This document shows, one piece after another, positions 19,208-29,387 of a stretch of 44,079 nucleotides of DNA; within the stretch, counting starts at the first letter, position 1, and each line of letters starts with the position of its first letter. The DNA comes from Candidatus Kapaibacterium sp. (GTDB lineage Bacteria > Bacteroidota > Ignavibacteria > Kapaibacteriales > Kapaibacteriaceae). Where the stretch lies: NCBI GenBank assembly GCA_030833725.1, contig JAURGP010000001.1, positions 1 to 44,079 of the forward strand, written 5' to 3'. The notes beneath the pieces were generated by a model. That model was not told where the DNA came from and searched no databases. It was given only the letters and a program-made list of their open reading frames with translations. Made by a program: the position numbers and the translations under genes.

Positions 19208-19972
19208 TCACGTAGTTGATGAGAGAAAACGAGCGATTCCGGTCTTACAATCTTCTGTCTGGCGGGCCAAGGCATTCATCGACACGGCATAGCGCAGTCC
19301 GGTTTCCAGGGTCATACCGTGGAGCGCATGCAACATCTGTTTGGTAAGATCCATGGCCGAGGCACTGTTTCGTGTAAGCTGTTCAGCCATGCGATAGGTG
19401 GCCGACTCTAGGTCGGCATCAGGAACAACATGGGCGATCAATCCCATGGTGCAGGCCTCGGTGGCGGTGATATTCCTGGCTGTAAGCACTAGCTGACGTG
19501 CTCGTGTGTCGCCGATCTTCCTAAGGAGGTACACCATCACGATGGCAGGAATAAAGCCAATCTTCACCTCGGAGTATCCAAACTGCGCACCTTCTTCAGC
19601 CGCAAGCACGATGTCGCAGACCGTGGCCAACCCGCACCCACCAGCGATAGCAGGGCCGTGCACCATACCGATCACCGGCTTGGAGCATGTCACGATCCGT
19701 TGAAACATGGCCATGAGCCGTGCCGAGTCCTCGGCATTCTCTTGGGGCGACTGCTCGGAAATCTGCTGAAGGTAGGCTAGGTCGGCACCGGCACAAAACG
19801 CTGGTCCAGCCCCCTTCAGCACCACAACCCGAACCTGTGGATCGGCGTCGGCCTCGTTCATGGCGCGATGCAAGGCCGCGATCAGCTCAGGATTCAGCGC
19901 ATTGCGCTTCTCCGGCCGATTCATCGTAAGGGTAAAGATGCCGTCGCTCAGCGTTTGCAACAGTGGTTCCAT
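19208..19972 (-). CDS. Enoyl-CoA hydratase/isomerase family protein
   Basis: The 254-aa crotonase-fold protein begins MEPLLQTLSDGIFTLTMNRPEKRNALN. It has the oxyanion-hole motif GAGPAFCAGADLAYL and the GPAIAGGCGLATVCDIVLAAEEGAQFGYSEVKIGFIPAIV stretch with the catalytic Glu region. The style is close to methylglutaconyl-CoA hydratase-like members of leucine catabolism, but the substrate is not determined. The ATG at 19972 is used because upstream in-frame sequence is unlike the family and overlaps the preceding protease gene. It follows that gene by 20 bp. Confidence 0.9.
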   Translation of the reverse strand: MEPLLQTLSDGIFTLTMNRPEKRNALNPELIAALHRAMNEADADPQVRVVVLKGAGPAFCAGADLAYLQQISEQSPQENAEDSARLMAMFQRIVTCSKPVIGMVHGPAIAGGCGLATVCDIVLAAEEGAQFGYSEVKIGFIPAIVMVYLLRKIGDTRARQLVLTARNITATEACTMGLIAHVVPDADLESATYRMAEQLTRNSASAMDLTKQMLHALHGMTLETGLRYAVSMNALARQTEDCKTGIARFLSSTT

Positions 19973-19992
19973 CCGTCGAAGATACGAGTCGG

Positions 19993-22833
19993 TTATCGGA
20001 GCACCACAAGTGGAATGTAGGAAACCACACCAACGTCGGCACCAGATGCACGCACGGCATAGATTCCAGGAGGCAGTATTCGAAGGTCGATCATCACGAT
20101 GCGATCGGCAGGTAGCGCTGAACGGCGCAATACCTCCTGCCCCTGAAGGTTGGTGATCACAACATCGAGCGGGTTGTTGCCATTTGGTGGCAGATGCAGC
20201 CATACCTCCGCCTGCGCTGGGTTCGGGTAGATCAGCAGTGGGTTCCGCGTTCGCCGCGGTGCCGTACCTGTCACGCCACGAGCCAGCTGGATAGCGTCAT
20301 CTGACGAGTTGGCCATGGCAATCACGTACCGAAACTCTCGACGGCCTCCCGGTGGAATCGGACCAGCGAAGTGCATGCCCGTGACGGTGGCAATATCGTT
20401 GACGTCCGGGTACTGCTCCACCTGCTCATTGAGCAACCTCCACTTCTCCGCCGCCGAAAAGCCTCGATACGTGGTGGTGTTGTCCATGGTGATTGCAATG
20501 GGTCGCGCATCGGCAAACACCGACGACACTCCCAGGGCCACGGCCGGTTCGTTGGGAGTTGTGGAGGTGACGACCTGGAGATGACTATTCGGCTCAGTTT
20601 CCACCACATAGCCACGGTTGCGTACGGCATTGGTGCCCAGATCCCAGTCTGAGAAGTAGGCCACACTGAGGGTTGGCCACGCCGTGTCGCTGCGGTTGGT
20701 CACGGCCAGATCAATCACGATCGCTGCCGAGTCGGCCCCAGCCAGCCACACGCGCTGCTCCACTTCGACACCGCTGCGGAGTGAGTCAGGTGCATCGTCA
20801 TCATTCACAACAGCAACCATGGTGTCTGGTCGCACAAAGCGCTTTACGGGACGGAAGTGATCGTTCGTGCCGCGATCGGCGCGAACGGCATCTACCACCC
20901 GATCTCCGACCGACACCATCAGACCCGACTCATACAGCTGGCCACAGAACTCCCGAAACGTGAGCCCAGCCCCCTGCCCACGCGACAGGTCGGTGTTTCC
21001 AATTCGACCTCGATCGCCCAGCGATACCGTGAGCACGTCGTTCTGGATCGTTCGAAACTCTGGTGCCGGAGTCACAGGCAATACAAGGTCGAACGGCGTA
21101 CTATCGGCATGTAATCTCGCCTGCAATCTGGATTGGACAAACACGGACGCATCCGTTTGCTGCTGTACAACAAAGCTCAGTGATGGCAGCGGGAGTGAGT
21201 CCCCCGCGGCGATGAACTGTGAGCTGGTGTCGGTCGTTCCCGGTAGTGAGCGGAGAGGTAGCAATGGCGTTGGCCAGATGAGATCCGTGACGGTATAGCC
21301 CCCTACAATCAGGTCGCGCAAGGGATTCGTCACCACGGGCGTAACGAGGATGGTATCGCCAACCGTCCAGCGGGAATCACCCTGAGCGCGGACGTCAACT
21401 GATAGCACTTCAAGGTCAACACGTGTGGAGTCCGGTGTCACCGCGGCCAGTGCATCAACCCTGCCCTGTGGCAGCAGACGATCGTCGATGGTGGAAGGAA
21501 CACTCGCCCATGGTGCCCGCGCGGCAGAGGCCTTTACCGTAGCCAGCGCTTGCCGGGCTGAATACTCCGGAAAACGCGACCGGACCAGCCCCACCACAGC
21601 AGCAACAATCGGCGATGACCCCGACGTACAACAGAAGCCACCGTAGGTGCCATCGTTACTGGTGGTTATCGTGCCCTGGCCAGGAGCCATGATATCAACC
21701 GTGGGACCGTAGCCCGTCATAGAGATGACGTTGTCGGCAGCATCGGTTACACCTACGTTCAACACATCTGGGTACGAGCCGGGATAGAATGGCGTTGTGG
21801 TGCCATGGTTGCCCGCTGCGGCAACGATAGCAACGTTCCGCGCTGTTGCATACCGGATGATGCTCTCGTTGATGCAAGACGACGAGAACCCACCCCAACT
21901 GCAGTTCACGACCTGCACATCGTTCAGAGCGCAGTACATGATCGACTCATACCCGTACACAATTCCGGGAATGTTGTCGGGCATCGTTTTCAGAGGGACA
22001 ATCGTGCAGGCTCCCGCAACTCCGGCAATGCCAATCCTGTTGTTCACGGCAGCTGCGCAGATCCCCGCAACACCGGTGCCATGGCCCTCGACGGCATTGA
22101 ACGTGTTACCTGGTGGTGTGCCGTCATCGTCCGTGCAGAAGTTATAGCCACGACAGTCATCAACGTATCCATTGCCGTCGTCATCGATTCCGTTATCGGG
22201 AATCTCTCCGTCGCGTACGTACAGTTGAGGGGCTAGGTCCTCGTGTTCTTGAAGAATGCCACTATCACTAATGCCGATAGACACCGTGGCCGAGCCCCCT
22301 TCCACATCCCATGCATCAAACACACGAATCGTGGCGAGCATCGTCTGTTCCGAGCTGAGAGAATCATTGGGAACGCCGGCTACCTGGTAGATGTAGACTG
22401 GCTCTGCAACATCGATGGCCGAGCAGCCAGTACGCAGAAATGCCACAGCTTTTTCGGGCGGTACGGCATCATCGTAGGCTACCACATACGTACGCAGGAG
22501 TTCCTCCTCCAGTTCAAGCGCCGCAGCCGAGGGACGTTCCACCATAGCACGCCGGGGCTGATTGTTCTGCAGCTGAGCCGTTAGCGACTGCTCCCATGGT
22601 AGCACGGCGTACAGGATGGTGCAGCCGGCTTCTGCTAACACTGCCGCATGGAGCTCACGCGGAATCTCCGGCATGAGTCGAACCTTGAGTCTTCCTCCGA
22701 GGGCGGCATCTAGGCGCACACCCTGTTCAACAGGCCAGATGATTGGCTGTGCGGGCCGTGCAGGCTGCGCTCCTGCGGTACACACAAGACAGACCACGAA
22801 CGCAACGAACGCAACAATCGTACGGATCTTCAT
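19993..22833 (-). CDS. Subtilisin-like serine protease (S8) with T9SS sorting domain, copy 1
   Basis: The 946-aa secreted protein has a signal peptide (MKIRTIVAFVAFVVCLVCTAGA), a propeptide-like region and an S8 catalytic domain with D190 (GISDSG), H251 (GHGTGVAG), N341 (AAAGNHG) and S403. The Ser motif reads CTSGSSP instead of the usual GTS-MA-AP, so the Gly before Thr is Cys; activity is probable but not certain. A Ca-binding-like NGIDDDGNGYVDD loop lies between D and H. The last ~80 residues (YPNPAQAEVWLHLP ... PPGIYAVRASG) form a type A T9SS C-terminal sorting domain, so it should cross the outer membrane by T9SS. It overlaps copy 2 by 4 bp. Confidence 0.93.
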   Translation of the reverse strand: MKIRTIVAFVAFVVCLVCTAGAQPARPAQPIIWPVEQGVRLDAALGGRLKVRLMPEIPRELHAAVLAEAGCTILYAVLPWEQSLTAQLQNNQPRRAMVERPSAAALELEEELLRTYVVAYDDAVPPEKAVAFLRTGCSAIDVAEPVYIYQVAGVPNDSLSSEQTMLATIRVFDAWDVEGGSATVSIGISDSGILQEHEDLAPQLYVRDGEIPDNGIDDDGNGYVDDCRGYNFCTDDDGTPPGNTFNAVEGHGTGVAGICAAAVNNRIGIAGVAGACTIVPLKTMPDNIPGIVYGYESIMYCALNDVQVVNCSWGGFSSSCINESIIRYATARNVAIVAAAGNHGTTTPFYPGSYPDVLNVGVTDAADNVISMTGYGPTVDIMAPGQGTITTSNDGTYGGFCCTSGSSPIVAAVVGLVRSRFPEYSARQALATVKASAARAPWASVPSTIDDRLLPQGRVDALAAVTPDSTRVDLEVLSVDVRAQGDSRWTVGDTILVTPVVTNPLRDLIVGGYTVTDLIWPTPLLPLRSLPGTTDTSSQFIAAGDSLPLPSLSFVVQQQTDASVFVQSRLQARLHADSTPFDLVLPVTPAPEFRTIQNDVLTVSLGDRGRIGNTDLSRGQGAGLTFREFCGQLYESGLMVSVGDRVVDAVRADRGTNDHFRPVKRFVRPDTMVAVVNDDDAPDSLRSGVEVEQRVWLAGADSAAIVIDLAVTNRSDTAWPTLSVAYFSDWDLGTNAVRNRGYVVETEPNSHLQVVTSTTPNEPAVALGVSSVFADARPIAITMDNTTTYRGFSAAEKWRLLNEQVEQYPDVNDIATVTGMHFAGPIPPGGRREFRYVIAMANSSDDAIQLARGVTGTAPRRTRNPLLIYPNPAQAEVWLHLPPNGNNPLDVVITNLQGQEVLRRSALPADRIVMIDLRILPPGIYAVRASGADVGVVSYIPLVVLR

Positions 22834-25604
22834 CGCAGGATGACAAGGTGGTGCGAGGTACCCCGATCAGGATGCACCACGTACATTCCTGGTGCAAGAT
22901 GACTCACGTCCAACACCGTTGATGTACTGCCGCGTGGTGTCGGCTGCTGATGGACAACCATTCCCATGGCATTCACCACAGTGATCGTGGCGGCTTCTTC
23001 GTGCTGTACCGTAACAACGCTGGAGGCCGGATTGGGATAGAGCTTCCGTCGGGAATCTTCTATGACGGTCATGGGGTCCAACAGTGTTTCGCGTACCGAA
23101 GCCGAAGCTTCCTCGATGTTCTGGCCTACACCGATCACAAGCATCATCGTCTTCATATCACCCGGTAGGAGCGCGCCAGGGAAACGCATGCCCAGCACAC
23201 CACACACATCGCCCGTCTGAGCTGTCTGGATGCTCGTTCCGGAGGAGAGCAACCGTAGCACGTCGGGGTCCGTCATACCATCGGCATCATCGACGATATC
23301 CCAGATCAGCATGCCGGAGGCCTGTGCCTCAGCCAGAGGGTCGGACGTAGCCGCAGCACACACCACCGCTACAGGTAGCACCTCATGCCAGAACGCCTGT
23401 GCCACAGCACTCCCTGCACTACCTGTTGGTAGAGCCTCTGGTGCTAGTTGCGTGCCGTTATTGGCCACGGTTGCAAGATCCCAATCGAAGTAGTACCCCG
23501 CAGCAACATCCTGCAGGGGGCTGGTGGTGCGGTTTTCAATTGTGACCTCTACAACGGCAGTTCTCGACGACACCGTGGGGAAGGTCCAGCGCGTGCTAAT
23601 GCGCACACCCACGTCCTTCCCACTCAAGCTATCCGTCATCACGGCCGTGGTGGTATCTGGAGCGACGAAGGCTTTCTGTATCGTGAACTCGCTCTGTGTA
23701 CTGACATTGTTGAACGCCTTTACTACACGCGAGCCTCCTTCTGAAAACAGGAGACCACTTGGCGAGAGCAGGTTATACCGCTCCTTCCACACAAAGCCTC
23801 GGCCCGTACGAGACACCAGCACGTTGTTGTAGCCGAAGGTACCGTCTTCTCCAGCAGAAAACAGGAGTTCGTTGTTCTCGAAGGTGCCCATCGTCGTGGA
23901 GGGACTGACGTAGTCCAACATGCTGCGCTCCTGGTCATCGAATACTGCCGCAAGATCCAGGATGCAAGGGGCTTGGGATTGCTGATTCACCACGATGCGG
24001 AAGGGGCCAATGCGCTCGGAGGCTCCGGACGGTAGTGCACCACCACGCACCTGGCTGGTAACGACGGTCACCTGCCAGCGGTTTTCCTCGGCAATGCGCA
24101 GTCGATAGTCCACCGAACCAGCTGGTCCGAGGTCGTTGCCAATCGTGTACCACACCTCCAGCGTATCGCCATTGGAGAACCGATCTCCGCGTCGACCATC
24201 TATGTGGCGGCGCTCCACGGCTGTGATCCGCAGCGCGGCGACGTCGAGCGGTGCGGTGCGTAGAGCCGCCTCGGCATCCACCCTACCGGAAAGCACATTG
24301 GCATAGCCCGGGTTATTGGCATCGATATTGGCTGATGTTACTTCGATGAGTGCAGTGATTTGACGTGGGGTAAGATCCGGGTATTCTGCAGCCACGAGGG
24401 CTGCCACACCAGCCACGATGGGCGAAGCAAACGATGTTCCCGTGATACCTTGCGTTGCATAGCCCCCTCCAGCCTCGGTGGTGGTAGCTCGATTGCCAGG
24501 CGCCATCACCCGAGCATTGATACCCAGACCAGATGATTGAACGACAACATCGCCCGACGTTGTTTCCCCTACACCCAACACGCCGCGATAACTGGATGGG
24601 AAGTTCACCAGTTGCCATCCTAAACCGCCGGCACCATCTCCATGGTTACCAGCCGAGGCCACAATCAAGGTGCCGCGCTCCGTGCAGTAATCCACAACAT
24701 CCTGGTCGATCATCGACGGTGGCTTCACAACGCCCCAGGAACAGTTCACGACACGAGCACCCATCTGGGCAGCATACATCAGAGACTGGTAGCCATACAG
24801 AATGCCGTTCTGGTCGGTGCGGGCTGTTTTCAGCGGAAGCATCTTGCAGTTCCATGCAATGCCGGCCATGCCAATGCCATTGTTGGTGGTGGCGCAAGCA
24901 ACTCCTGCCACGCGTGTGCCATGTCCGTTCGCACGGTAGTTGACCGTGACGCCTGGCTGTGTACCCTCCTCCTGCCATGTGAAGTTGTAGCCTTGGTAAT
25001 CATCCACATAGCCGTTGTTGTCGTCGTCGATGAGGTTATTGGGAACCTCGCCGGTGTTTGTCCAAAGCGATCCCTGCAGGTCCTCGTGCTGCTGATCAAC
25101 GCCATTGTCGCTGATCGCAATCACCATCGAAGCATTGCCCTGTTGAACGTCCCACGCCTGCTGCATACGTATGGTTGTAAGGGCAGCCTGCGAAGACACG
25201 AGCGGGTCGTTGGGAACGGCATGCAGTTGACCGATGTACCACGGCTCGGCCAGCTCCACAGCTGGATCCTGCATCGCTACGGCGGCCGCCTTCATGGGAT
25301 CGATCGGCCCGGCATAGCGCACAATGGCAGTGCGCAGCAATCGTTCTTCGATGCCTGCCAGTGACATGTTGTACGTGCCTCGCGGGGCCAGCCTGCCAAT
25401 AGCGACACATTGGGATGGTTGGAGGAACCAGTCGGTGACCTCCATCCCCGGAGACGGCCTAGAAAAATCCGTGTTGCCAGGTTGAAACCGTACAATCACG
25501 TAGCCAGGGCGAACAGACGATTCCGTAGCGCTTGCCGGCATATTCAGGGCCGAGAGCAGCACCAGAATCAGGATGTGGAGGAGTTGGTACTTGGTAGGGG
25601 TCAT
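22830..25604 (-). CDS. Subtilisin-like serine protease (S8) with T9SS sorting domain, copy 2
   Basis: The 924-aa paralogue of the following gene starts at the ATG at 25604 with a signal peptide (MTPTKYQLLHILILVLLSALNMPASA). The catalytic triad is intact: D166 (AISDNG), H228 (GHGTRVAG) and S391 in the canonical GTSFASP; N320 is the oxyanion Asn. An NLIDDDNNGYVDD loop matches copy 1. The middle ~350 residues are beta-rich, of unknown role. The tail (LYPNPASSVVTVQHEE ... LAPGMYVVHPDRG) is a T9SS type A sorting signal. Gene order and shared layout indicate a tandem duplication followed by divergence. It is transcribed away from dnaX across a 50-bp gap. Confidence 0.94.
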   Translation of the reverse strand: MTPTKYQLLHILILVLLSALNMPASATESSVRPGYVIVRFQPGNTDFSRPSPGMEVTDWFLQPSQCVAIGRLAPRGTYNMSLAGIEERLLRTAIVRYAGPIDPMKAAAVAMQDPAVELAEPWYIGQLHAVPNDPLVSSQAALTTIRMQQAWDVQQGNASMVIAISDNGVDQQHEDLQGSLWTNTGEVPNNLIDDDNNGYVDDYQGYNFTWQEEGTQPGVTVNYRANGHGTRVAGVACATTNNGIGMAGIAWNCKMLPLKTARTDQNGILYGYQSLMYAAQMGARVVNCSWGVVKPPSMIDQDVVDYCTERGTLIVASAGNHGDGAGGLGWQLVNFPSSYRGVLGVGETTSGDVVVQSSGLGINARVMAPGNRATTTEAGGGYATQGITGTSFASPIVAGVAALVAAEYPDLTPRQITALIEVTSANIDANNPGYANVLSGRVDAEAALRTAPLDVAALRITAVERRHIDGRRGDRFSNGDTLEVWYTIGNDLGPAGSVDYRLRIAEENRWQVTVVTSQVRGGALPSGASERIGPFRIVVNQQSQAPCILDLAAVFDDQERSMLDYVSPSTTMGTFENNELLFSAGEDGTFGYNNVLVSRTGRGFVWKERYNLLSPSGLLFSEGGSRVVKAFNNVSTQSEFTIQKAFVAPDTTTAVMTDSLSGKDVGVRISTRWTFPTVSSRTAVVEVTIENRTTSPLQDVAAGYYFDWDLATVANNGTQLAPEALPTGSAGSAVAQAFWHEVLPVAVVCAAATSDPLAEAQASGMLIWDIVDDADGMTDPDVLRLLSSGTSIQTAQTGDVCGVLGMRFPGALLPGDMKTMMLVIGVGQNIEEASASVRETLLDPMTVIEDSRRKLYPNPASSVVTVQHEEAATITVVNAMGMVVHQQPTPRGSTSTVLDVSHLAPGMYVVHPDRGTSHHLVILR

Positions 25605-25654
25605 AGCATTTCGCAGTTTTCGCACTTCACCCAAGGAAGGTAAGTGTACAGATC

Positions 25655-27319: not shown

Positions 27320-27799
27320 ATGGCTCTCTCTTCCGGTACGAAGGCACCCTCGATCTCTGCAGCAGCAACGCAGGCAGGGGGCTCGTGGAGTATGAAGGAT
27401 GCAAAAGGCTCCTGGCTGGTGCTGTACTTCTATCCCAAGGATAACACCTCCGGTTGCACGGCTCAAGCCTGCGACTTCCGCGACACCATGCCTCGGCTTG
27501 CTTCAGCAGGCGTTGCCGTTGTAGGCGTCAGTCCGGATAGCGTGAAGAGTCACGACAACTTCGTCCAGAAGCATGATCTGAACTTCACCCTACTGTCCGA
27601 TCCCGACTCCTCTATCTGCGAAGTCTACGATGTGTGGAAGGAAAAGTCCATGTACGGTAGGAAGTACATGGGTGTCGTGCGCACGACGTACCTCATCAAT
27701 CCGGCTGGAAAGATTGTCCACGTGTGGGACAAGGTGAGCGTCAAGGGCCATGTAGACGACGTGCTTGCTACGCTAGCTACCCATGGCATCACCGTATAG
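27320..27799 (+). CDS. bcp: Thiol peroxidase, Bcp/PrxQ-type peroxiredoxin
   Basis: The 159-aa thioredoxin-fold protein has the PrxQ signature: YFYPKDNTSGCTAQACDFRD with peroxidatic C46 and resolving C51 five residues later, and FTLLSDPDSSICEVYDVW. It reduces hydroperoxides with thioredoxin as electron donor in the cytoplasm. It follows dnaX and precedes the tatD frame by 4 bp (using the tatD start at 27804), so the two are probably co-transcribed. Confidence 0.94.
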   Translation: MALSSGTKAPSISAAATQAGGSWSMKDAKGSWLVLYFYPKDNTSGCTAQACDFRDTMPRLASAGVAVVGVSPDSVKSHDNFVQKHDLNFTLLSDPDSSICEVYDVWKEKSMYGRKYMGVVRTTYLINPAGKIVHVWDKVSVKGHVDDVLATLATHGITV

Positions 27800-27803
27800 T
27801 GGC

Positions 27804-29387
27804 ATGATCGACTCCCACGCCCACATCGATGCTAAAGCCTTCGACGCGGACCGATCAGCCATGCTACAGCGAGCATGGGATGCCGGAGTCGAAGCGATCA
27901 TTGTTCCGGACATTCAGCCCTCGCGGCGTGACCATCTGATCGAGGTTGTCAACAGTGACGCTCGCCTCTATCGTGGAATAGGTGTCCATCCTCATCATGC
28001 AGGCTCCGTTGACACGGCTGAACTCGATGCCATCGAAGCTGGAGCCAGTGAGGCTGGCGTTGTAGCCATCGGTGAAATCGGATTAGACTACCACTACGAC
28101 TTCTGTCCGCCCGATGTTCAGCAGCACGTGTTTCGCGAGCAGATTCGGATTGCTAAGCGCATGAACCTGCCGATTATCGTGCACAATCGTGAATCCGACG
28201 ACGATGTTCTGCGCATCCTTACCGAAGAGCAGGACGGCACGCTGCGCGGTGTGCTTCACTGCTTCTCCAGCGATGCTCAGGTTCTTCACACAGTCCTAGA
28301 TCTAGGTCTGATCGTGTCGTTCACAGGCAATATCACCTTTAAGAATTCGACCTTACTCCCCGTGGTCGCGTCCGTTCCCGATGATGCCTACATGATTGAA
28401 ACGGATTCACCCTACATTGCACCTGTACCTCATCGCGGAACACGGAACGAGCCAGCGCACGTTGCCCTTGTTGCGCAGACAATAGCGGAGATCAAATCCA
28501 TGACCTATCACGATATCCTGCGGGCAACCACCACAACGGCCAAGCGTCTGTTTGGCTTGACGGCAGTGGTGATGATGTTGCTCACATCGGCTGCGTTGGC
28601 GCAGCCCACACCACCTCGCGATGAAGACTACGAAAACGATTACGACTGGGAAATCGCGCTCGAGAACTACTACGCCGACAGCGCAGCCTATGAGAGCTGG
28701 GTACGGCCCCGTAGAAGCAGCGTCGGTATCGGTATCTCAGTGGGATCCAACACACAGGTGGAATCTCAGACCTTCCGGCAGCGCTACGACAACTCCTATG
28801 AAGTAAACGGCAATCTGGATCGTGGTGAACCCACTCGGTGGACCTTCTTCGCACCGGAGCAAGGTCCGAACCGTAGCTTCTCCTTCGAAGGTTTGACCGC
28901 CATTGGTGGCACCATCACCTATAGCCCCTTTACCAGTCTGATGCTGGAGGGTACGTTCACCTATAGCCAGAACACCGGCCCAGCCGAGGACTTTGGCTTG
29001 GATCCAATCACCACGAACATTGTTGAGGTGTCTGGCCTGTACAACCTGAACCCGTACAGCAGGGTGAACTTTTGGCCCCAGTTTGGCGGCACGATGGCCT
29101 TCGTAGACGACGGCACTACCCAGCAAACAAAGTTCGGGATCAACTTCGGATTGGGAATCGGCGTGAACATCCCCACATCGTTTGGCTTGTTCTATCCGAT
29201 GTTCAACGTGCGGTTTAATGCCATGCTGCAGCAGGATCAGAACAAGTTGGTACAGCGCTACCTTGACGCCGACGGAAACGTTGCCACCAAGACCGACGAC
29301 CCCACGAAGATCTCCGTTGATCTTGCCGATGTGAACGTGCTGTACTCGATTCCACGCCTGACCATCCTCTATTATCCACCGTTCTAA
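27804..29387 (+). CDS. TatD-family DNase continuing in frame into an outer-membrane barrel protein
   Basis: One open frame of 527 codons holds two proteins. Residues 1-252 are a complete TatD metal-dependent DNase: MIDSHAHID (HxH metal ligands), GEIGLDYHYD, IIVHNRESDDD, LHCFSSDA and the ETDSPYIAP motif, ending at KRLFGL where TatD proteins normally stop. There is no stop; instead LTAVVMMLLTSAALAQ follows at once, a signal-peptide core with an Ala-x-Ala type cleavage site, then ~260 residues of alternating beta pattern ending in an aromatic (LTILYYPPF), as in outer-membrane barrels. A fused protein would put an export signal in the middle. I list the whole frame because nothing interrupts it; an internal start at 28500 is given separately. 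ATG 27783 is an alternative start overlapping the bcp stop. Confidence 0.85.
   Translation: MIDSHAHIDAKAFDADRSAMLQRAWDAGVEAIIVPDIQPSRRDHLIEVVNSDARLYRGIGVHPHHAGSVDTAELDAIEAGASEAGVVAIGEIGLDYHYDFCPPDVQQHVFREQIRIAKRMNLPIIVHNRESDDDVLRILTEEQDGTLRGVLHCFSSDAQVLHTVLDLGLIVSFTGNITFKNSTLLPVVASVPDDAYMIETDSPYIAPVPHRGTRNEPAHVALVAQTIAEIKSMTYHDILRATTTTAKRLFGLTAVVMMLLTSAALAQPTPPRDEDYENDYDWEIALENYYADSAAYESWVRPRRSSVGIGISVGSNTQVESQTFRQRYDNSYEVNGNLDRGEPTRWTFFAPEQGPNRSFSFEGLTAIGGTITYSPFTSLMLEGTFTYSQNTGPAEDFGLDPITTNIVEVSGLYNLNPYSRVNFWPQFGGTMAFVDDGTTQQTKFGINFGLGIGVNIPTSFGLFYPMFNVRFNAMLQQDQNKLVQRYLDADGNVATKTDDPTKISVDLADVNVLYSIPRLTILYYPPF
28500..29387 (+). CDS. Putative internally initiated outer-membrane barrel protein within the tatD frame
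   Basis: From the ATG at 28500 the same frame gives a 295-aa protein whose first ~34 residues form a full signal peptide: a basic n-region (R8, K15, R16), a hydrophobic core (LFGLTAVVMMLLTSAA) and cleavage near ALA|Q. A GGAG at 28487-28490, 9 nt before the ATG, could serve as ribosome site. The mature part has acidic N-terminal residues and then beta-strand-like repeats with a terminal Phe. If used, 20 codons encode both the end of TatD and the start of a signal peptide in the same frame. This is inference from sequence; no homologue search was possible. Confidence 0.5.
   Translation: MTYHDILRATTTTAKRLFGLTAVVMMLLTSAALAQPTPPRDEDYENDYDWEIALENYYADSAAYESWVRPRRSSVGIGISVGSNTQVESQTFRQRYDNSYEVNGNLDRGEPTRWTFFAPEQGPNRSFSFEGLTAIGGTITYSPFTSLMLEGTFTYSQNTGPAEDFGLDPITTNIVEVSGLYNLNPYSRVNFWPQFGGTMAFVDDGTTQQTKFGINFGLGIGVNIPTSFGLFYPMFNVRFNAMLQQDQNKLVQRYLDADGNVATKTDDPTKISVDLADVNVLYSIPRLTILYYPPF

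Follow-up and report, generated by a model that had tools for sequence, protein, structure and literature searches.

The locus described here raises the question of why the frame of a tatD gene continues, without a stop codon, into what looks like a signal peptide and an outer-membrane barrel, and which products such a frame would give. We refer to the whole stretch of DNA that was analysed, 44,079 nucleotides from Candidatus Kapaibacterium sp., as the window. A first-pass annotation had noted that TatD reaches its normal last residues, KRLFGL, and that the frame then goes straight on into a hydrophobic core, a signal peptidase-type site and a barrel-like part; this stop-free run is confirmed over 27783-29387. 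As read from the window sequence, the frame begins at ATG 27783 and terminates at TAA 29385-29387, with a second possible tatD start at ATG 27804 (the second Met), and the flanking genes are dnaX-, bcp- and upp-like by Pfam. An ATG at 28500-28502 (M240 of the long frame), separated by 9 nt from an upstream GGAG (28487-28490), had been claimed inside tatD and is present. The features are collected in Table 1.

Table 1. Features of the long tatD frame, in window coordinates.
Feature	Position	Strand	Basis or remark
Whole frame: TatD, signal peptide and predicted outer-membrane barrel	27783..29387	+	Stop-free between the parts, 534 aa
TatD DNase domain, residues 1-259	27783..28559	+	Pfam PF01026, YcfH alignment, catalytic positions
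GGAG, Shine-Dalgarno-like	28487..28490	+	From Ala-Glu codons GCG GAG inside tatD
Shared 20 codons: TatD C-terminal helix and putative signal-peptide start	28500..28559	+	Internal ATG conservation
Proposed second gene, pre-barrel, 295 aa	28500..29387	+	Proposed from the internal start
Predicted signal-peptide hydrophobic core and c-region	28560..28601	+	Hydropathy, SPase-like pattern
Predicted mature outer-membrane beta-barrel with N-terminal linker	28602..29384	+	AlphaFold2, Foldseek

Elsewhere in the window, two neighbouring subtilase (Peptidase_S8) ORFs at 19993-25634 (-), each with a Por_Secre_tail sorting domain, overlap by 4 bases as listed. An ORF that is enoyl-CoA hydratase-like by eye, at 19208-20203 (-), would overlap the subtilase ORF at 19993-22833 (-) by 211 bases if read from its first ATG, and it probably starts at an internal Met instead.

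The first part of the frame matches the PF01026 profile over positions 1-253 of 253 (E 3.4e-74). Its alignment to the closest solved TatD-family protein, YcfH (6l25), extends to residue 259, the Leu at 28557-28559 (252 aa from the second Met), YcfH itself ending after two more residues; among the other 11 solved TatD-family proteins, most end at 257-259. The end of TatD at KRLFGL is thus borne out. Six positions taken as metal-binding or catalytic in this family (H12, H14, E98, H134, H159 and D208) are kept at the aligned positions of all 114 fused loci. The TatD part looks functional and is predicted to be a nuclease; the source genome (G000) has one further TatD-like match, a distant one (30%).

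Behind TatD, the hydrophobic core covers approximately residues 260-271, and the predicted signal peptidase cut falls between residues 273 and 274 (28601), after ALA and before Q (ALA/Q). The signal peptide was judged by hydropathy and pattern alone: the 12-residue hydropathy mean is at least 2.0 in 113/114 fused loci, with a maximum of 1.09 in 19 control loci in which TatD is joined to a radical SAM-like part, and a loose SPase-like pattern, applied to fused loci only, follows the core in 114/114. The A and Q of the site are invariant in 16 aligned sequences. Structure prediction of the part after TatD, which the first-pass annotation had suggested, returned a beta-barrel (AlphaFold2 pLDDT 80.6) whose best Foldseek matches include OmpA, Ail, NspA and OmpW (best E 4.8e-6), with modest TM-scores of 0.3-0.43 by query length. 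Pfam OMP_b-brl is found in 18 of 65 aligned barrel members at E 0.01, the window copy being without a match, and a model of the whole frame, in which TatD is followed by a helix (259-272) and then by the barrel, is of low confidence overall (pTM 0.49). From these models the C-terminal part is predicted to be a small OmpA/OmpW-like outer-membrane barrel, and it looks like a functional protein. The gene downstream of unfused tatD was considered as a possible barrel ancestor and rejected, as in the examined loci of families f11, f26 and f27 it is ABC transporter ATPase-like (by eye).

For a frame seen in one metagenome-assembled genome, it was fair to suspect at first that the sequence or its assembly was wrong, or that a stop had been lost recently. 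We found no support for this. The barrel was found in 117 of the 123 genomes of the order Kapaibacteriales examined and in 51/51 of its genera, and TatD and the barrel share a single open frame in 115 of 116 judgeable genomes, four of the 115 being single-contig assemblies. The 115 consist of 98 loci of a first set, 16 later loci and G001, which was judged apart as its contig ends within the barrel; G401, a contig-end fragment only, was not judgeable, and G073 is the sole exception with separate genes. The comparison of orthologous loci that had been proposed as a check therefore shows no stop between the two parts outside G073, and this order-wide conservation, together with fusions in two families outside the order, excludes the sequencing error that had been offered as an alternative and leaves error or recent stop loss with almost no credence. 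Six genomes of the order have no barrel match, and in one of these (G016) the TatD gene is broken by a contig end. The 114-locus set used for the counts below left out 8 of the 106 order genomes first found (G001, G016, G020, G073, G076, G078, G089 and G401), with G076 entering the later 16-locus set, and "fused" in the start and motif counts was assigned by family, an extension behind TatD being seen in each.

The two families outside the order belong to the same class (f13, 5 loci; f19, 11 loci), and their barrels are linked to that of the order by profile comparison (f13 99.85%, E 1.6e-30; f19 95.6% over 101 columns, E 1.3e-8). In the other families examined TatD stands alone or carries a radical-SAM-like extension. 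On a TatD tree of 103 rows, made by a quick search with the tail columns excluded, all 72 barrel-fused rows fall on one side of one branch (SH-aLRT 94), which supports the barrel fusion being one change on this tree. A free-standing barrel was found in G073 only among the 123 genomes of the order, and in a search of 296 genomes across the phylum, with a profile that misses some distant barrels, 26 of 27 matches lie in frames of at least 474 aa in genomes with the fusion, the 27th being weak (G468, E 3.4e-4, in a 474-aa frame). No match to the barrel was found on plasmids. The f1 barrel profile gave 16 named records, of which 12 are titled Candidatus Kapaibacterium or Ignavibacteria and the other four Bacteroidetes, bacterium, Melioribacter roseus and Bradyrhizobiaceae, the last of which is probably mislabelled.

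In the one exception, G073 (family f7, a MAG that is 70% complete), tatD lies between bcp- and upp-like genes in the same gene order as in the window and stops soon past the TatD tail. The barrel is on a different contig, with its own start and its own signal peptide (L235 and L229 are the separated loci); it adjoins a gene named by eye as glycosyltransferase-like. The G073 tatD has no ATG at columns -18 and -10 (numbered as below), one at -4 without a nearby upstream motif, and GCA GAA as its Ala-Glu codons. In trees both parts fall among the fused ones, with their exact placement weakly supported. G073 shows that the two proteins can exist apart and that relocating the barrel offers a way out of the arrangement. 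This weighs against the view that the frame encodes a single fusion protein that is never separated, a cytosolic TatD with a membrane anchor and a barrel. Such a protein would agree with the one frame, the one change on the TatD tree and the one separation in the order; against it, the outer membrane is the expected place of an OmpA-type barrel, TatD carries no export signal, ALA/Q is invariant in the 16 aligned sequences, and both halves stand apart in G073. We regard it as very unlikely.

The first-pass annotation had suggested that the internal ATG, if used, would make the end of TatD the beginning of an export signal, and that its conservation be examined among orthologs. We numbered alignment columns from Gly258 = 0 and took columns -20 to -3 as the tail window. 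A tail ATG is present in 104/114 fused loci versus 2/35 TatDs without the barrel, and other 18-codon windows of the fused TatDs contain an ATG in 27%; with GTG and TTG included, a tail start codon is found in 111/114 and 15/35, respectively. By family, the ATG is present in 19/20 f1 loci (the remaining one has GTG with AGGAG), f2 35/35, f3 8/8, f4 3/3, f6 1/1, f7 8/9, f8 3/3, f9 12/12, f10 1/1, f13 5/5 and f19 9/11, being absent from L170 (f7) and two f19 loci. Family f5 has no tail ATG in any of six loci (L026, L029, L031, L032, L045 and L053) and has nonetheless kept the fusion; GTG or TTG occurs in columns -20 to -3 in 4/6 of them. The column of the ATG varies by lineage, mostly -18 in f1 and f7, -12 in f19, -11 in f3, and -10 in f2, f8, f9 and f10 with some f2 at -18. 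This variation suggests that selection acts on a start and not on a methionine, and the alignments strongly support an ATG that is conserved for its function rather than for its residue. Sixteen further loci, fetched once the hypothesis was fixed, have the ATG at -10 in 16/16, several of them belonging to genera already in the first set.

In f1 loci with the ATG at -18, G is the last base of both the Glu codon four positions upstream and the Ala/Ser codon five positions upstream in 17/17, versus 2.4 expected from each gene's own codon use, the basis of all expected counts here (tail 3e-16). Where the ATG is at -10, the codon four upstream ends in G in 42/47 (expected 11.5, tail 2e-22), or 25/28 with one locus per genus (expected 6.7, tail 4e-14); by family this codon, at -14, is G-ending in f2 27/28, f9 9/12, f8 and f10 together 4/4, f3 1/2 and f7 1/1, and it stays so whether it encodes Glu, Lys, Gln or Arg. 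The motif produced by this synonymous choice is GGAG or GAGG, and it shifts along with the ATG: with the ATG elsewhere, the same columns have no excess of G (0/54, expected 7.5; 4/43, expected 11.7; 9/20, expected 9.8). In a gene-wide scan for G, column -14 ranks first of 131 in f2/f8/f9/f10, and in f1 column -23 ranks first, -27 second and -22 fifth of 151. A test of codon homogeneity, omitting the two near-copies G015 and G018, ranks both f1 motif columns 1 and 2 of 150 (z 10.1 and 9.3), with z of 2.0 only for column -14 of f2/f8/f9/f10. The later loci have a G-ending motif codon in 14/16 (14 of 15 scored, L253 entered as a miss, versus 3.3 expected, tail 2e-9). In these lineages the motif is conserved in this form, the second feature that had been put forward for ortholog comparison.

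All of these tail probabilities assume that loci are independent given codon use, and as the loci are related the true weight is lower. It could be argued from this relatedness that the ATG and the G-ending codons are a relic of ancestry or a codon preference, with no start site behind them. The genus representatives and the later loci agree with the full set, the control columns lack a G excess, and the -14 codon keeps its G across four amino acids, which makes a relic extremely unlikely. Codon-pair bias was rejected as the source of GCG GAG, as GCG is used in 9 of 71 Ala-Glu pairs in 31 window ORFs. A point against the internal start is that Shine-Dalgarno motifs are generally rare upstream of genes here (7/32 window ORFs). 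The strength of the signal lies in the sum, since single-locus tests reach p<0.05 in 2/111 loci. Three f1 loci start at -16 behind AGGA or AGGAG, where the motif is due to the residues (Lys/Arg-Gly) rather than to synonymous choice (p 0.30-0.61), and no excess of Shine-Dalgarno strength was seen in f3, f4, f5, f6, f7, f13 and f19. By these codon comparisons, a ribosome-binding signal appears to be under selection in f1, f2, f9, and f8 with f10 (four loci).

A further Ala codon lies at f1 column -27 (window 28473-28475), 12 nt upstream of the Shine-Dalgarno codons. It is GCG in 16/20 f1 loci (expected G-ending 4.4), and in 14 of those 16 Glu comes next, giving a tandem GCGGAR...GCGGAG that is perhaps a standby site; the window copy has Gln next.

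Folding of the mRNA is consistent with a start at the same place. Relative to synonymous shuffles, the mRNA around the internal ATG folds less (mean z +0.52, s.e. 0.09, 104 loci), compared to z -0.14 (s.e. 0.07) in 312 control windows. The effect is +0.75 +/- 0.18 in f1, +0.38 +/- 0.11 in f2/f8/f9/f10 and +1.21 +/- 0.14 in f13 with f19, and in f3/f4/f6/f7 (+0.25 +/- 0.19) it is not distinct from other windows.

Comparison among genomes supports the open frame, the internal ATG, the Shine-Dalgarno codons, the open mRNA, an intact TatD and the single change on the tree, and from these we infer the initiation, export, cutting, fate of the long form and lock-in set out here. Two products would come from one frame, a long TatD form and an internally initiated barrel precursor, a reading to which we give a probability of roughly 0.78. 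Initiation at tatD would give TatD followed by the signal peptide and barrel with no stop in between, and ribosomes loading at the GGAG and ATG 28500 would make the barrel precursor alone. This precursor would begin with a Sec signal peptide of 34 residues, the n-region of which comes from the codons of the TatD C-terminal helix, and signal peptidase I would cut it at ALA/Q, with the barrel going to the outer membrane. The last 20 tatD codons thus probably double, in the same frame, as the export-signal start of an unrelated outer-membrane protein, as had been proposed from the ATG and GGAG and as the lineage-shifting ATG with its matching G-ending codons suggests. A stop loss giving a true fusion, the other explanation considered at the outset, fares worse, since it does not predict the synonymous signal and G073 has the halves as separate genes.

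As no stop separates the parts, the long TatD-signal-barrel polypeptide must also be made, and it would be the source of the DNase, either as an intact membrane-tethered fusion or, more likely, after being cut at ALA/Q as well, leaving TatD with a short membrane tail. Cutting of the long form could by itself account for both proteins if the frame had one start and an internal signal, with signal peptidase I yielding a membrane-tailed TatD and a mature barrel. The stop-free frame in 115/116 genomes, the hydrophobic core (113/114) and SPase-like pattern (114/114), and the fusion retained in f5 with an internal ATG in 0/6 loci all fit such a polyprotein, which does not predict an ATG whose column varies by lineage and which a synonymous ribosome-binding motif follows at constant distance; we consider it unlikely as the only route. 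Internal initiation does not preclude cutting of the long form, and f5 may depend on cutting alone or on a GTG/TTG start.

With two products from one frame, it is possible, as a tentative extension that we think probably goes too far, that the long form is a working protein: signal peptidase would turn it into an inner-membrane-tethered TatD, two starts and one cut site would serve both proteins, the internal ribosome site would set the ratio of barrel to nuclease, and the shared helix-signal codons would lock the pair together across the order. With the barrel start placed within tatD and in frame with it, a stop upstream of the ATG would truncate TatD and one downstream of it would kill the barrel; as either stop is damaging, the pair would stay locked together until a copy of one gene arises at another site. 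An overlap may in this way turn into an evolutionary trap; in this order the arrangement has been kept, with a single escape observed. The synonymous choice that shifts with the start offers a comparative test for hidden starts, and the TatD proteins of approximately 500 aa in this group appear to hide an outer-membrane protein, a warning for annotation.

Among known systems, the FbcH precursor of cytochromes b and c1 is cut by signal peptidase and likewise has an internal signal sequence linking two proteins encoded in a single frame; it differs in that it is not known to use an internal start and that both of its parts belong to one complex. The TatD::radical SAM fusions of sister families resemble the present case as a TatD with an in-frame C-terminal extension, and differ in lacking the hydrophobic segment and in the tail ATG, present in 2 members of the 35-locus control set to which they belong. 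These radical-SAM-like extensions occur in f12, f18, f20, f21 and f28 (L117, L120, L123-L126, L128, L129 and others), L117 by Pfam TatD_DNase and Radical_SAM and the others recognised by their sequence, and the TatD C-terminus seems prone to fusions.

In-frame internal starts are already known, and in the cases compared, as described in the consulted parts of the two reports, they yield two forms of one protein. The mycobacteriophage Ms6 lysA/lysin241 pair is an in-frame nested gene with its own ribosome-binding site, according to the consulted part of that report (PMC3111421), and as with TatD and the barrel the second product begins in frame within the first gene behind that site. N-terminal proteoforms of Salmonella and E. 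coli, in the portion of the source seen (PMC11005335), also have two in-frame starts, and their localisation may differ. In the open-access literature we found no report of one protein's tail serving as another's export signal. In the TatD-barrel frame, a cytosolic enzyme's C-terminal helix and the export-signal start of an unrelated protein appear to be written in the same 20 codons. The Ms6 products are two forms of one enzyme in the account consulted (PMC3111421), whereas TatD and the barrel are unrelated, would have different destinations and share only 20 codons. In OmpX, PagC and SseL, as given in the part of the proteoform study seen (PMC11005335), the shorter form loses its signal, whereas in TatD-barrel the internal start would create one from another protein's tail.
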